From Actinomycetota bacterium (GTDB lineage: Bacteria > Actinomycetota > Acidimicrobiia > Acidimicrobiales > Ilumatobacteraceae), in NCBI GenBank assembly GCA_016870865.1, contig VGAC01000008.1, positions 1-64,000 on the forward strand: a stretch of DNA of 64,000 nucleotides, in the 5' to 3' direction. Below are positions 3,196 through 18,428 of this stretch, in pieces (the first letter of the stretch is position 1; the number at the start of each line of letters is the position of its first letter). The position numbers and the translations under genes were made by a program. The notes below the pieces were generated by a model. It ran no database searches. It saw only the letters and a list, made by a program, of their open reading frames with translations, and was not told where the DNA came from.

Positions 3196-3201
3196 TAGCC
3201 T
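3196..3201 (+). promoter_or_regulatory. -10 element of nadA, leaderless type
   Basis: TAGCCT, 7 nt before GTG 3209. The identical hexamer precedes leuB, greA and mca at similar spacing. It supports 3209 rather than TTG 3188 as the nadA start. Confidence 0.5.
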
Positions 3202-3208
3202 TGACGGC

Positions 3209-4198
3209 GTGACGGCCGTTCAAGGCGCTTTCGATGTTGCGGCATGGGCCGACGAGATTCGGGCATTAGCTACCCAACGCGATGCGGTGATTCTCGCCCA
3301 CAACTACCAGGTGCCCGAGATACAGGACGTGGCCCACCACGTGGGTGACTCACTCGCGTTGTCGCGCATCGCCGCCAAGGCCGATGCCTCGACCATCATC
3401 TTCTGCGGCGTTCATTTCATGGCCGAGACGGCGAAGATCCTGGCCTACGACAAGACGGTATTGATTCCCGACGAAAAGGCTGGTTGTTCGCTGGCCGAAA
3501 CCATCAACGGCGAACAGTTGCGCGCTTGGAAGGCGCAGCATCCCGGGGCCGTCGTAGTGAGCTACGTGAACACCACGGCCGAGGTGAAAGCCGAAACCGA
3601 CATCTGCTGCACGTCGTCGAATGCTGTTGAAGTGGTGGCCTCGATTCCGGCCGACCGCGAGATTCTCTTCTGTCCTGACCAGTTCCTGGGCGCACACGTT
3701 CAGCGCACGCTGGGTCGCGAGAACATGCACATTTGGATGGGCGAGTGTCACGTGCATGCGGGTATCAACGGCGCCGAATTGCGGCGGCGTGTGGAAGAAG
3801 AGCCGGATGCCGAGCTGTTCATTCACCCCGAGTGCGGTTGTGCGACGAGTGCGTTGTATCTCGTCGAGTCGGGTGTCGTGCCGAAAGAGCGGACGCGCAT
3901 TTTGTCGACCGGGGGCATGGGTGACGCGGCGGTGACAACCAAGGCGAAGAAAGTGTTGATCGCCACCGAGACGGGAATCATTCACCAGCTGCAGAAGTCG
4001 AACCCGCTGGTGATATTCGAACCCGTGAACCGTGCCGCGGTGTGCAAGTACATGAAGATGATCACGCCCGAGAAGTTGTCGGCATGTCTGAAGACCGGAC
4101 GCGACGAAGTGACGGTTCCGCGCGAGATCGCCGATCGGGCGCGGCAGTCGGTCGAGCGGATGATCGCACTCGGCACACCCTCGAAAACGGGGGAGTAG
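3209..4198 (+). CDS. nadA: Quinolinate synthase NadA
   Basis: This cytoplasmic [4Fe-4S] enzyme condenses iminoaspartate with dihydroxyacetone phosphate to make quinolinate, the second step of de novo NAD synthesis. The 329-residue protein carries [11 protein letters not shown] near its start. The expected cluster ligands are C93 (AGCSLAE), C180 ([10 protein letters not shown]) and C279 (VCKYMKMIT), with spacing close to known NadA proteins. Length is normal for the compact NadA type. GTG 3209 is chosen because a TAGCCT -10 lies 7 nt upstream; TTG 3188, overlapping the previous stop, is the alternative. nadB follows directly after the TAG stop. Confidence 0.95.
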
Positions 4199-14050: not shown

Positions 14051-15046
14051 ATGGCACATCGCATTGCAGTCATTGGTGGTGACGGAATCGGACCGGAGGT
14101 CACGACCGAAGCCCTGAGGGTGGTTCACGCGGCCGGAGTGGACGTCTCGGTGACGAACTTCGATCTTGGTGGGGCCCGCTACCTGCGCGACGGTGAGATT
14201 CTGTCCGACGCGACGCTCGATGAATTGCGCGGTTTTGATGCGATCCTTCTCGGTGCGGTGGGTACTCCCGACGTCCCACCCGGCGTCATCGAGCGGGGTT
14301 TGTTGCTAAAGATGCGGTTCGAGCTCGACCTCTACGTCAACCAGAGGCCCTTCGTCGGGAGGGCACCCGGTCACTCGAAGTCGCATGATTTCATCGTCAT
14401 ACGTGAAAACACCGAAGGCCCGTACGCGGGCGAGGGTGGGGTCCTGCGCAAGGGAACACCGAATGAAGTTGCCACCCAGGGCAGTGTGAACACACGCAGG
14501 GGAGTCGAACGCTGCGTTCGTTATGCATTCGAACTTGCCGCCAAGCGCGAGCGGAAGCACGTGACGTTGGTCCACAAGACGAACGTCCTCACGTTCGCCG
14601 GTGATCTGTGGCAGCGAACGTTCGACGTCGTCGCCAAGGAGTTCCCGAATGTGGGCACCGCCTACAACCATGTCGATGCCGCGTGCATCTACTTCGTGCA
14701 GGACCCCCATCGCTACGACGTCATCGTCACCGACAACCTCTTCGGTGACATCCTCACCGACCTTGGTGGTGCGATCAGTGGTGGCATCGGTCTTGCCTCG
14801 TCGGCCAACCTGAATCCGGCCCGCACCGGTCCCTCGATGTTCGAACCCGTGCACGGCTCTGCACCCGACATCGTCGGGACGGGCAAGGCGAACCCCACGG
14901 CAGCGATTCTCTCTGCAGCCCTCATGCTCGACTTTCTGGGTGAAAACGTCGCTGCGACACGTGTTCGCCTCGCATGTGCCGAGCCCTCGGCTGGTTCCAC
15001 CGTCGACATCGCCAATTCAATCGTTGCCCGCCTGGCCGGCAAGTAA
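14051..15046 (+). CDS. leuB: 3-isopropylmalate dehydrogenase
   Basis: LeuB oxidatively decarboxylates 3-isopropylmalate in leucine synthesis, and 3-methylmalate in the citramalate route to isoleucine. The 331-residue protein has [10 protein letters not shown] at the N-terminus, [27 protein letters not shown], the metal site [20 protein letters not shown] and [20 protein letters not shown], where GSAPDI is typical of LeuB-type NAD-dependent enzymes. A homologous tartrate- or homoisocitrate-type specificity is less likely given ilvE and cimA downstream. The mRNA is predicted leaderless. Confidence 0.9.
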
Positions 15047-15049
15047 TCT
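15044..15049 (+). promoter_or_regulatory. Candidate internal -10 element for ilvE
   Basis: TAATCT overlaps the leuB stop codon and lies 24 nt before the ilvE ATG. It would give a short leader containing the AAAGGA binding site. Confidence 0.35.
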
Positions 15050-15073
15050 GCGTAGACCCGAAAGGACTCACGG

Positions 15074-15994
15074 ATGCCCACGCTCGTTCCCACGCCGAAA
15101 ATCTGGATGAACGGAAAACTCGTCAATTGGGACGACGCCAAGGTCCACGTTCTGACGCACACCCTGCACTACGGCACGGGTGTCTTCGAGGGAATTCGCG
15201 CGTATGAGACCGCCGAGGGGCCCGCGGTTTTCCGCTTGACCGAGCACATCGAGCGTATGTTCCGTAGTGCACACATCCTGGGGATGGAGATTCCGTACAC
15301 CGTCCAACAGATCATCGACGCCACGAAGGAAACCGTGGTCTCCACCGGTCTTCCCGGTTGCTACATCCGCCCGATCGCGTATTACGGCTACGGCGAAATG
15401 GGCCTCAACACGCTCCCGTGCAGTGTCGACGTCGCGATTGCGTGCTGGCCGTGGGGCGCGTACCTGGGCGACGATGCAATGACCAAGGGTGTCCGGATGA
15501 AGATTTCATCGTGGAAGCGCCTCGACCACAACATGTTGCCGCCTGCCGCAAAGACGGTCGCGAACTATGCGAACTCGTCGCTTGCAAAAGTGGAAGCGTT
15601 GAAGGCCGGCTACGACGAGGCGATCCTCCTCAACAATGAAGGACTCGTCAGCGAGTGCACCGGCGAGAACCTGTTCGTCGTGCGCAACGGTGCGGTCATC
15701 ACGCCCCCGCTGTCGGCCGGTGCGCTCGAAGGCATCACGCAGGCAAGCGTCATCACCATTCTCGAGGACCTCGGTCACGCGGTTGACAAGGGCAACATCG
15801 CCAGGTCCGACCTCTACATCGCCGAAGAGATCTTTTGTGTGGGTACCGCCGCCGAGGTCAGCGCGATCAACTCGGTCGACGACCGAAAGGTGCCGTGTCC
15901 CGGGCCAATCGCGCGGCAGGTTGCCGAGACCTACAGCAAGGCGGTGCGCGGCCAGATCGCCAAGTACAAGCACTGGTGTGAAGCGGCAAAATGA
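15074..15994 (+). CDS. ilvE: Branched-chain amino acid aminotransferase
   Basis: IlvE is a PLP enzyme carrying out the last step of isoleucine, valine and leucine synthesis. The 306-residue fold-type IV protein shows [20 protein letters not shown] at its start, [20 protein letters not shown], the PLP-lysine region [15 protein letters not shown] (residues about 157-171), GYDEAILLN and [19 protein letters not shown] lies 8-9 nt before ATG 15074. It sits between leuB and cimA; a GC hairpin without a T-run follows its stop. Confidence 0.93.
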
Positions 15995-16045
15995 GCCCAC
16001 GCGGCTCGATTGTGCGCTCTGTGTGACAATCCCCAGTTTTGTCCA

Positions 16046-16067
16046 CAGGGGGCCTCGACGCCCCCTG
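16046..16067 (+). terminator. Strong hairpin after ilvE
   Basis: CAGGGGGC-CTCGAC-GCCCCCTG, a perfect 8-bp stem with a 6-nt loop, lies about 50 nt after the ilvE stop. There is no T-run, so it may act as a weak terminator or stabilise the 3' end. Confidence 0.45.
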
Positions 16068-16091
16068 ACACCCCTGTAATTGCCGTAAAAT
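16065..16091 (+). promoter_or_regulatory. Candidate promoter for the cimA leader
   Basis: CTGACA (16065-16070, close to TTGACA) and TAAAAT (16086-16091) are separated by 15 bp. Transcription would start near 16098 and include the whole leader-peptide and terminator region. The spacing is a little short. Confidence 0.4.
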
Positions 16092-16142
16092 CAAGGTCCT
16101 CATTGACGAAACGGGCGTTTCACGGGCAGACTGAGGGGCGTG

Positions 16143-16214
16143 ATGTCCACAGCCTGTCCCTCTTTGGCCCTCGGGTCGCTGCGCGCCGCTGTCGCCATCA
16201 TCATTATTCCGTAG
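16143..16214 (+). CDS. Isoleucine leader peptide of cimA
   Basis: A 23-codon open frame from ATG 16143 to TAG 16212-16214 with GAGGGG 4 nt upstream. The product is MSTACPSLALGSLRAAVA, then four consecutive Ile (ATC ATC ATT ATT, 16197-16208), then Pro. It ends exactly where a strong hairpin begins and lies 26 nt before an intrinsic terminator that precedes cimA. This is the classic layout of ribosome-mediated attenuation by a branched-chain amino acid; scarce Ile-tRNA would stall the ribosome on the Ile run. Function is inferred from layout. Confidence 0.75.
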   Translation: MSTACPSLALGSLRAAVAIIIIP

Positions 16215-16266
16215 CGCACGGTCCACCCCGTGCGCAGCCAGCCGCCCACCGGGCGGCTTTTGTTTT
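16214..16266 (+). promoter_or_regulatory. Attenuator: leader hairpin plus intrinsic terminator
   Basis: Hairpin one, 16214-16235, is GCGCACGG-tccacc-CCGTGCGC with a perfect 8-bp stem, starting at the last base of the leader stop codon. Hairpin two, 16240-16258, is AGCCGCCC-acc-GGGCGGCT followed by TTTGTTTT, a textbook intrinsic terminator 30 nt before cimA. An alternative pairing of 16179-16184 (CTGCGC) with 16232-16237 (GCGCAG), possibly extended, would compete with the first hairpin and reach the edge of the terminator. I could not settle the antiterminator fold by eye. Confidence 0.7.
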
Positions 16267-16296
16267 ACCCGAAACACCCCAGAAAGAGACGAACAG

Positions 16297-17886
16297 ATGA
16301 GCACGAAGAGCACCCAAGTGGCCGACAATTTCGTCGAGGTCTTCGACACGACGCTGCGTGACGGCATGCAGGTCGAGGGCGTGTCGGCGACGGTGGAGGA
16401 CAAGTTGCGCATCGCCGAGCAGCTCGACTTCCTCGGGGTGCACTTCATCGAGGGTGGCTGGCCGGGAGCGAACCCCAAGGACATCGAATTTTTCTCCCGT
16501 GCCCGCAGAGAACTAAAGCTTGCGAACTCGACGCTGGTTGCCTTCGGATCGACTCGTCGGCCGAAGGGAAAGGTGGACGACGACATCACGCTGCGCAACC
16601 TCATCGAGGCCGAGACGTCCGCGGTGTGCATCGTCGCGAAATGCTGGGATTACCACGTCGAGCACGCATTGCAGACGACCCTCGAGGAGGGTGTTGCCAT
16701 GGTTGCCGACTCCGTCGGATTTCTCAAGGGCAGCGGTCGTCGCGTGCTTGTCGACATGGAGCACTTCTTCGACGGCTACAAACGCAATCCTGAGTTCTCG
16801 CTGCGGGTGCTCGAGGCAGCCGTCATGAACGGTGCAAGTCACCTCGTTCTCTGTGACACGAACGGAGGGTCGTTGCCCCACGAAGTCGGTGACATCGTTG
16901 CCGCCGTGCGCAAGCACATTGGCTCCGACGCGACGCTCGGTATCCACTGTCACGATGACACCGGCTGTGCGGTGGCCAACTCGATAGCCGCAGTTGCGGC
17001 CGGGGTGCGTCATGTCCAGGGAACTTTGAACGGTCTTGGTGAGCGCACGGGCAACGCGAACCTCACCACGATCATTCCGAACCTGCAGTTGAAGATGGGC
17101 TACCACTGTCTGCCCGACGAGAACATGCCGCGCCTAACGACCGTCAGCCATCACGTCGCAGAGGTTCTCAACCGCCCGATGAACCCGCAGGCCCCGTACG
17201 TCGGGTCGTCAGCGTTCGCCCACAAGGCGGGTCTCCACGTGTCGGCGATCGCTCGCGCGAAGGATGCGTACGAGCACGTCGACCCCGAACTTGTCGGCAA
17301 TGGCACGAGGTTTGTCGTGTCGGAGATGGCCGGACGCGCGACGATCCAGATGAAGGCCGATGAAATCGGTCTTGCCATTGACGGGCCCGCGGTGAATCAG
17401 GTCATCGACGACCTCAAGCGTCTCGAGCACGAGGGCTACCACTTCGAGGCGGCCGACGCGTCGCTCGAATTGCTGATGCGCCGTGCCGCTGGCTGGGAAT
17501 CACCCTTCTTCACCGTCGAGTCGATGCGTGTCATCACCGATGAGGCCGCCGATGGGACATTCACCACCGAGGCCACCGTCAAAGTGTGGGTGGCCGAAGA
17601 GCGCTTCGTGCACACCGCCGAGGGCAACGGCCCGGTCAATGCGATCGACTCGGCGTTGCGTGCCGCACTCGTGCCACGGTTCCCGCAGCTCACGAAGATT
17701 CATCTCACCGACTACAAGGTGCGCATCCTCGACGGCGCAACGGCTACCGGTGCGGTGACGCGTGTCCTCATCGATGCGACGAACGGGGAACGTTCGTGGA
17801 CCACGATCGGTGTGTCGCCGAACATCATCCAGGCGTCGTGGCAGGCGCTCGAAGAGTCGCTCGTGTACGGCTTGCTCCACGCCTGA
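16297..17886 (+). CDS. cimA: (R)-citramalate synthase
   Basis: CimA condenses pyruvate with acetyl-CoA to citramalate, the entry to threonine-independent isoleucine synthesis. The 529-residue DRE-TIM metallolyase has FDTTLRDGMQVEGVS (catalytic Arg-Asp near residues 21-22), HFIEGGWPGANPKD, VLCDTNGGSLPHEV, GIHCHDDTGCAVANS (metal-binding His) and LNGLGERTGNANL, then a linker and a C-terminal LeuA-type dimerisation/regulatory domain. IEGGWPG and overall length fit the CimA rather than LeuA group; homocitrate synthase is a less likely alternative. The Ile leader upstream independently supports an isoleucine role. A weak AAAGAGA lies about 10 nt before the ATG. Confidence 0.9.
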   Translation: MSTKSTQVADNFVEVFDTTLRDGMQVEGVSATVEDKLRIAEQLDFLGVHFIEGGWPGANPKDIEFFSRARRELKLANSTLVAFGSTRRPKGKVDDDITLRNLIEAETSAVCIVAKCWDYHVEHALQTTLEEGVAMVADSVGFLKGSGRRVLVDMEHFFDGYKRNPEFSLRVLEAAVMNGASHLVLCDTNGGSLPHEVGDIVAAVRKHIGSDATLGIHCHDDTGCAVANSIAAVAAGVRHVQGTLNGLGERTGNANLTTIIPNLQLKMGYHCLPDENMPRLTTVSHHVAEVLNRPMNPQAPYVGSSAFAHKAGLHVSAIARAKDAYEHVDPELVGNGTRFVVSEMAGRATIQMKADEIGLAIDGPAVNQVIDDLKRLEHEGYHFEAADASLELLMRRAAGWESPFFTVESMRVITDEAADGTFTTEATVKVWVAEERFVHTAEGNGPVNAIDSALRAALVPRFPQLTKIHLTDYKVRILDGATATGAVTRVLIDATNGERSWTTIGVSPNIIQASWQALEESLVYGLLHA

Positions 17887-17890
17887 CGGC

Positions 17891-17896
17891 TACTCT
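17891..17896 (+). promoter_or_regulatory. -10 element of gene at 17904, leaderless type
   Basis: TACTCT, 7 nt before ATG 17904, just after the cimA stop. Confidence 0.4.
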
Positions 17897-17903
17897 CAAG
17901 GCC

Positions 17904-18428
17904 ATGGCCGCACCGCGTTACACCCCCGAGTTCACGGCGGGACAGACCTCTGCCTACGAGTCGCCCCAGCACGTGCCTGGGTCGTGGAAACCCGGCCGCA
18001 AGGGCGAAATCGACGGACGTCAACCCGCCGGCAGACGCCTGGGTTACCAGGGTCCCGACCAGGGTTTCGTTCTCAAGATCGCCTCTTCCCTGCGTGGTGA
18101 GATTCGCCTGCAGTCCGGTGAGAGCGTCGATGACGCCATTCGCGGCAGCATCAACATCGCCCTGCGTCGCGCGTCGCTCTACGGCCGTGCGCCCGTGGTC
18201 CACGACGTGCGTCTTGCGCTGACCATCTGGGGTTGGCTCGACCCGAGTCCGCCCACTGATCTGGTGGTGGCGCGCAAGGCGCTGTTTGCCGGTGTGTCGC
18301 ACGTGACCGCGCATTACGGCGAAGGCCGGCACATCGCGGATCTCGTTCCCGAGGCGACACTACGGATGACCCCTGAATCAGCAGGCAACGCGATGCCCGA
18401 CTCGTGGCGCGCCCTCACCGGCTCCTGA
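17904..18428 (+). CDS. Conserved-looking hypothetical protein
   Basis: A 174-residue protein I do not recognise. It begins MAAPRYTPEFTAGQTSAY; the first 50 residues are rich in Gly, Pro and Arg (GSWKPGRKGEIDGRQPAGRRLG) and look flexible. Residues 55-130 look like an alpha/beta domain (DQGFVLKIASSLRGEIRL, RGSINIALRRASLYGRAPVVHDVRLALTIWGWLD). No signal peptide or membrane segment. It follows cimA by 17 nt but has its own TACTCT -10 element. Codon use matches the neighbours. No link to isoleucine synthesis can be claimed. Confidence 0.65.
   Translation: MAAPRYTPEFTAGQTSAYESPQHVPGSWKPGRKGEIDGRQPAGRRLGYQGPDQGFVLKIASSLRGEIRLQSGESVDDAIRGSINIALRRASLYGRAPVVHDVRLALTIWGWLDPSPPTDLVVARKALFAGVSHVTAHYGEGRHIADLVPEATLRMTPESAGNAMPDSWRALTGS

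Follow-up and report, generated by a model that had tools for sequence, protein, structure and literature searches.

The window, that is, the whole 64,000-nt stretch of DNA that was analysed, carries a compact array of signals between ilvE and cimA, extending from a promoter-like pair of hexamers to an intrinsic terminator. The features of the locus are the following:

14051..15994, + strand: leuB (to 15046) and ilvE (15074-15994), upstream of cimA, with which they share an operon in relatives from outside the family
16103..16132, + strand: predicted promoter, with -35 TTGACG (16103-16108), an 18-nt spacer and -10-like CAGACT (16127-16132); similar pairs stand before the leaders of relatives
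16140..16214, + strand: leader ORF, Val/Met-MSTACPSLALGSLRAAVAIIIIP-stop, starting at GTG 16140 (preferred, as leaderless, from the -10 spacing) or at ATG 16143
16197..16208, + strand: four regulatory Ile codons, ATC ATC ATT ATT, read in the sequence
16212..16214, + strand: leader stop codon TAG, read in the sequence
16214..16235, + strand: hairpin A, 8 bp, starting at the stop codon (sequence, fold and covariation)
16240..16266, + strand: intrinsic terminator, AGCCGCCC(ACC)GGGCGGCT plus TTTGTTTT (sequence, consensus scan and fold)
16297..17886, + strand: cimA, citramalate synthase, the putatively controlled gene (TIGR00977 equivalog, 700 bits against a cut-off of 450)

Read from ATG 16143, the leader is a 23-codon ORF ending in ATC ATC ATT ATT CCG TAG. 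An earlier note on this DNA had described four consecutive Ile codons directly before the stop of a 23-codon leader; the four codons are there, but one Pro codon separates them from the stop (16143-16214). Hairpin A, GCGCACGG(TCCACC)CCGTGCGC, has eight perfect pairs, the G of TAG being its first base, so that the perfect 8-bp hairpin at the stop codon is confirmed at 16214-16235. A 4-nt linker leads to the terminator stem-loop (16240-16258), followed by TTTGTTTT up to 16266, and the ATG of cimA (16297) lies 30 nt downstream; the 8-bp-stem terminator announced at that distance was recovered both in the sequence and by a consensus scan. Models of 2-isopropylmalate synthase scored far under their own cut-offs with the cimA product and, judged by these protein models, the assignment of cimA is firm. 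Proteins 81-95% identical to it occur in metagenome-assembled genome records titled Bifidobacterium breve or Acidobacteria (L319, L351, L389 and L317), titles that look mislabelled.

The Ile4-X-TAG pattern (ATYATYATYATYNNNTAG) occurs once in the 1.95-Mb genome (reversed control, 0), the terminator pattern GCCGCCCN{3,5}GGGCGGCNTTT likewise has a single occurrence, and no other run of four Ile was found in the 19,637 codons of the 55 ORF proxies of the window, where Ile makes up 4.2% of codons. The arrangement is therefore not attributable to chance. That the terminator is a generic sequence of this genome was rejected, since its pattern was found only once. The consensus scan of 15900-16400 returned one site, the terminator itself, versus a mean of 0.4 in shuffles, and the segment 16197-16266 folds at -32.3 kcal/mol (z -5.88), with 0 of 200 shuffles as good.

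Conservation and distribution of the element

Of 150 genomes of the family (Ilumatobacteraceae-like), 146 matched in a protein search for cimA, a few with weak matches only, and upstream DNA was available for 130 loci. Conservation upstream of cimA in relatives had been set beforehand as a test of the attenuator claim, and the claim passed it: Ile-X-TAG plus the terminator is kept in 99 of the 130 regions, which represent at least 21 of the 27 sampled genera (our own count from locus labels). The terminator was present in 100 regions, 99 of which could be anchored; the remaining one (L013) is cut by the contig end and was left out. All 99 anchored leaders stop with TAG, with TAA and TGA allowed, versus 19 of the 55 ORF proxies in the window. 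The last codon of the run, two codons upstream of the stop, is Ile in 99/99 (98 ATT and 1 ATC), as the anchor required, and the complete IIII run is found in 68/99. The less common of the Ile codons still outnumbers all non-Ile codons combined at run codon 2 (16/99 versus 5/99) and at run codon 3 (26/99 versus 10/99), which is what translation of the run would lead one to expect. In 21/99 leaders, run codon 1 does not encode Ile. The leader before cimA of Desertimonas flava reads IIIIT at its end.

Hairpin A covaries freely in the 99-locus alignment, with changes on both sides in 8 of 9 pairs, whereas the terminator stem GCCGCC/GGCGGC (alignment columns 69-87) is nearly invariant. For the 16-pair structure as a whole, none of 500 shuffles equals it in any of the five measures used, and sliding destroys the signal.

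The 30 of 130 family cimA loci without the terminator belong to four genera, g3, g9, g11 and g12 (10, 11, 1 and 8 genomes, respectively); by eye, cimA follows close behind the end of ilvE in those of g3, g9 and g11. In the g12 loci L069, L080 and L130 cimA starts about 7 nt after a -10-like box, perhaps giving a leaderless cimA mRNA. Twenty of the 30 family genomes without the cimA attenuator match model R1 (below) elsewhere at E ≤ 0.05: 14 before ilvB, 2 before leuA (L246 and L248, the latter leuA by NCBIfam) and 4 others. Among these 20 loci the script gave no site for L241 and L245 and misplaced the stop in the ilvB loci L237, L239, L242 and L244, and L247 looks spurious; 11 ilvB loci, one of them (L229) holding the first 16 residues of the gene only, and 2 leuA loci were added to the codon table.

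Model R1 was built from the 99-locus family alignment and includes the Ile run. At E ≤ 0.01 it matched in 189 of 298 genomes from the order, its matches being biased to Ile-like runs because it was trained on them. Eighty R1 loci were inspected: 48 precede leuB, 21 ilvB and 2 cimA, 6 have no assigned gene and 3 were not anchorable. The ilvB site of the window's own genome is among the 80 although its R1 E value is 0.06. Mis-anchored loci (L149, L207 and L219) and those without an assigned gene (L160, L171, L185, L191, L197 and L218) stay outside the codon table. Model R2, built from 91 mixed sites, had matches at E ≤ 0.001 in 80 of 396 genomes from the phylum, those of the own order among them, and in the own genome returned the elements before cimA (8.6e-16) and ilvB (8.2e-8). 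Of 20 phylum loci hand-picked from R2 matches, 11 precede ilvB, 2 precede cimA (by motif) and 7 were unassigned by the script (L282, L287, L293, L294, L295, L296 and L300); L296 later proved to be leuB, and L293, L294 and L300 look like false matches.

Beyond the order, leaders before cimA read IIIIA in another order of the class (L278) and TTVIIT (L288) and ARIIGS (L289) in other classes, and the genes of all three score above the TIGR00977 cut-off. L288 and L289 combine an Ile-containing leader, a hairpin and a terminator before cimA in single-contig genomes of 3.1 and 7.0 Mb. Fifteen longer loci from outside the family show the order leuB-ilvE-cimA in 12, leuB-cimA in 2 and none of the three genes in 1. 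Since leuB leaders head leuB-ilvE-cimA operons outside the family, we propose that the attenuator moved from leuB to cimA within it, where its run seems to have become nearly pure Ile.

Codon runs and downstream genes

The four run positions were tabulated by downstream gene, counting identical sequences once and leaving out L181, L195 and L200 (TAA or TGA stops). Leaders before family cimA (96) have Ile 348, Val 8, Leu 4 and other 24 of 384 codons, and the two other cimA leaders have Ile in 8/8. Those before leuB (47) have Ile 108, Val 47, Leu 2 and other 31 of 188, those before ilvB (30) have Val 71, Leu 29, Ile 20 and other 0 of 120, and the two before leuA have Leu in 8/8. The ilvB and leuA runs were recovered despite the Ile bias of R1.

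The same exchange is found within the window's own genome, with Ile4-P before cimA, Val4-L before ilvB and Leu3-T before leuA. The ilvB leader (L163, 1472-1582) ends V-V-V-V-L-TAG, with a hairpin at the stop codon and an abutting terminator; by this arrangement it would be a Val sensor of the same layout as the cimA element. The fold of its two hairpins stands out less (z -2.21, equalled by 6 of 200 shuffles). The leuA leader (L002, minus strand, 3200-3298) reads M-K-F-S-L-N-L-L-L-T-TAA and is followed by a 10-bp hairpin and an abutting terminator, the pair folding at -39.3 kcal/mol (z -7.17). It was missed by both R1 and R2 and read by eye upstream of leuA; by codons and layout it would be a Leu sensor. 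Elsewhere, too, the layout with product-matched codons precedes leuB-ilvE-cimA, ilvB and leuA. That the codons track the downstream product across cimA, leuB, ilvB and leuA supports the sensing of charged tRNA; it also supports the proposal that the DRE-TIM enzyme encoded here serves isoleucine synthesis.

Within the runs, some synonymous codons stand out. GTA is rare in the ORFs of the window (93 of 1,723 Val codons) yet favoured in the runs, being found at run position 2 in 22 of 30 ilvB leaders and at position 1 in 21 of 47 leuB leaders. The last Ile of the cimA leaders is ATT in 95/96, though ATC is the common Ile codon.

Leader start and the switch step

A generic sigma-70 scan reported no promoter at 16103-16132. 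A -10-like hexamer, its pattern chosen after inspection of family leaders, ends 6-8 nt before the leader start in 64/96 cimA, 30/47 leuB and 24/29 ilvB leaders, and a Shine-Dalgarno (SD) core is rare in them (6/96, 5/47 and 1/29, respectively). Leaders of the own genus keep GTGATG, with the -10-like box 7 nt before the GTG where checked (L003, L004, L005 and L083), while the bases between the box and GTGATG vary. These include the SD-like GAGGGG, previously taken for a good ribosome binding site: it is not kept in L003, L004 and L005, which have AACCCTT, ACGCCCC and GTTCTCT, and is probably a coincidence. Because the -10 spacing and GTGATG are kept and SD cores are rare, the leader is likely to be leaderless and to start from GTG 16140.

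We regard Ile-responsive, ribosome-sensed transcription attenuation of cimA, whatever its switch step, as highly probable. The sequences themselves show the parts, how these are spaced and conserved, that the pairs of hairpin A covary and that the run codons agree with the product for all four gene targets; from these we infer a leaderless start, translation of the leader and the direction of the response. Transcription would begin at or near the leader start codon, and a ribosome would translate the leader. When Ile-tRNA is ample, the ribosome would clear the Ile codons and leave at UAG, and the polymerase would stop at the terminator, 25 nt beyond it; under a shortage of Ile-tRNA, the ribosome would halt within the Ile run, where hairpin A has its foot, and the polymerase would continue into cimA. 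Because hairpin A and the terminator occupy separate segments and the terminator 5' arm showed no competing partner, this sequence of events does not by itself account for the way in which a stalled ribosome would prevent termination.

Under equilibrium folding with a ribosome block, nearly every sequence formed the terminator in each of the ribosome states, and the E. coli thr, trp and leu attenuators did the same; since these controls behave alike, the method is uninformative and was discarded as evidence against a switch. The test that replaced it asks whether, for each ribosome position, the terminator 5' arm is paired before the 3' arm is made. In the E. coli controls the arm was paired at 0.62-1.0 at most regulatory-codon stalls (exceptions: thr T16, 0.61; leu L18, 0.11) and at 0.01 once the ribosome had reached the stop. 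With the ribosome on run codons 1-3 it was free in the cimA, leuB and ilvB groups (means 0.08-0.20).

These measurements bear on the reading that the element is a classical attenuator, itself one form of the explanation favoured here, in which the 3' arm of hairpin A or another stretch is an antiterminator missed by our folds. In some loci the hairpin A 3' arm can pair weakly, as GUG-C-GC / GC-C-CAC, with the terminator 5' arm plus loop, the whole stretch reaching -3 to -10 kcal/mol in example loci, and actinobacterial ilvB examples have been modelled with competing hairpins in the accounts given in PMC11857589, PMC10272879 and PMC13236596. With the ribosome at the stop, occupancy of the arm is slightly above that of shuffles for cimA (0.51 versus 0.47) and leuB (0.54 versus 0.45; at least 0.5 in 28/48 versus 17/48). 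This small excess goes against a reading without antiterminator, but its order is opposite to that of the E. coli controls, and for ilvB the value lies below shuffles (0.28 versus 0.37). At run codon 4 occupancy is below shuffles in all three groups (cimA 0.48 versus 0.53, leuB 0.38 versus 0.43, ilvB 0.21 versus 0.36). The stretch joining the hairpin A 3' arm and the terminator 5' arm is, moreover, weaker than with a shuffled 3' arm and linker (mean z +0.41 for 99 cimA, +0.50 for 48 leuB and +1.21 for 21 ilvB loci), so that this pairing, with its mixed occupancies, was rejected as a candidate. Linkers between hairpin A and terminator measure 0-6 nt and the stems do not overlap; the folds of the own ilvB and leuA leaders place one hairpin directly against the other, without any linker.

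Because the 5' arm is free at run codons 1-3, the energies are weaker than those of shuffles and the stems do not overlap, the fold-energy and arm-pairing tests of the cimA, leuB and ilvB groups give no antiterminator that excludes the terminator by base pairing, and we consider the classical form rather unlikely. The element had been said to bear the hallmark of ribosome-mediated attenuation: the leader, the pathway codons and the terminator stand, but a mutually exclusive antiterminator is not detectable. Two further candidates were set aside. Frameshifting or stop read-through into the terminator was dropped, as each of the three frames runs on beyond the terminator in 62-66 of 71 sequences, a count that is uninformative because the DNA is GC-rich; pairing of the hairpin A 3' arm with the cimA start region, examined by eye, is not general.

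It is improbable that two independent elements are present, a small-ORF peptide with its own role and a fixed terminator, with no response to Ile. Formation of the terminator in every ribosome state would agree with this, but that folding has no power, as the controls show; the peptides vary across genera outside the branched-chain amino-acid (BCAA) run and in length (11 to 39 codons), yet the run codons follow the gene, and stop codon, hairpin and terminator hold one layout. A riboswitch, T-box or protein-binding element with incidental Ile codons is most improbable, for although hairpin A and the terminator stem are partly conserved in their letters, codon identity tracks the downstream gene and Rfam gave no family in the window (15000-18000, E ≤ 1) except a weak snoRNA match inside cimA, and, at E ≤ 0.05, nothing in 20 related loci apart from a single match of that snoRNA model, T-box and amino-acid riboswitch models being among those with no match in either. 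To our knowledge, leaders as short as that of cimA cannot hold a T-box. Nor did the element match an ilvB-II or ilvB-OMG motif in Rfam, in a library that may not include them.

Returning to Ile-responsive attenuation, the geometry of the ribosome narrows how the switch might work. In 84 of 86 loci the terminator lies 22-32 nt from the stop; in the other two the script mistook hairpin A for the terminator. This distance is near the 27-nt limit beyond which, as given in PMC4824070, an E. coli terminator is no longer repressed by the ribosome, which according to the same source covers about 10 nt beyond the A site. A ribosome with run codon 1 or 2 in its A site would thus leave hairpin A free, one at codon 4 would cover five of the eight bases of its 5' arm, and one at the stop would cover all. 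Given that Ile is kept at codon 4, either hairpin A would hinder termination after an early stall or it would aid termination and be blocked by a stall at codon 4. In the first form, a stall early in the run would let hairpin A fold and A itself would hinder the adjacent terminator; in the second, hairpin A would help termination, and a ribosome on the last, invariant Ile codon would keep it unfolded. Direct action of the hairpin might take place through contact with RNA polymerase, jamming of ribosome and polymerase, or stacking on the terminator. We tentatively suggest, as a possibility somewhat short of even, a class of actinomycetotal attenuators that switch without competing base pairing: a stop-anchored hairpin beside or abutting the terminator, formed or blocked according to ribosome position, would act directly on termination, and only the codon run would be exchanged, so that a single genome has Ile, Val and Leu sensors before cimA, ilvB and leuA.

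Relation to known attenuators

The E. coli thr, trp and leu attenuators resemble the cimA element in having leader regulatory codons that match the product and an intrinsic terminator more than 20 nt after the leader stop. They differ in that their terminator 5' arm is sequestered at most regulatory-codon stalls, which was not seen in the cimA element; here, by contrast, a single residue separates the run from the stop, and the first hairpin sets in at the stop codon itself.

Among Actinobacteria, Corynebacterium ilvBNC (ilvB-II motif, PMC10272879; three-hairpin model, PMC11857589) shares BCAA codons, a terminator and a Val GUA control codon, and in C. glutamicum translation is described as starting one nucleotide away, taken as from the transcript start (PMC11857589). 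Unlike in the cimA element, the antiterminator of those accounts overlaps the terminator, and the target is ilvB (PMC10272879, PMC11857589). Mycobacterium tuberculosis ilvB1NC has LVVI regulatory codons and a terminator, with a response demonstrated there by reporters, but a 166-nt leader, a UGA stop, a modelled antiterminator and ilvB1 as its target, as presented in PMC13236596. The ilvB leaders of the present set often read L-V-V-I-T-stop. Several leaderless leaders precede leuA, ilvB, trpE and tRNA ligase genes in Streptomyces lividans; cimA is not among the targets in the accessible text of PMC8079986, and ilvL, MRTRILVLGKRVG followed by its stop, has no run beside the stop.

The LEU element, with its Leu-run ORF upstream of leuA, resembles the leuA leader found here. 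As described in PMC1262725, it forms a pseudoknot, has no obvious terminator and pairs its Leu run with the SD sequence of leuA, whereas leuA here has a Leu run, a hairpin and a terminator. According to the same source, changing the candidate ilvB leader codons of S. coelicolor had no effect, and changes in the leuA leader codons had effects inconsistent with classical attenuation (PMC1262725). These ilvB and leuA results would count against the reading of Ile attenuation. The actinobacterial elements named in the text available of PMC1262725 concern trp, cys, ilvB, leuA, leuS, trpS and ileS, with cimA and leuB not among them. A search of the open-access literature by titles and abstract starts, with subscription papers largely outside its scope, found no report of an attenuator before cimA, and in open-access literature none of leader-peptide attenuation in Acidimicrobiia was found. 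By layout and codons, the element is a member of a wider set of BCAA sensors built on one plan, and it differs from the classical kind in having no detectable antiterminator.

The citramalate route to isoleucine would thereby gain its own end-product sensor in Acidimicrobiia. Within one genome the codon run tells which amino acid is served, Ile for cimA, Val for ilvB and Leu for leuA, and so offers a natural aid to annotation where DRE-TIM synthases are easily confused. If the antiterminator is truly missing, these leaders would represent a simple control of termination through the position of the ribosome.
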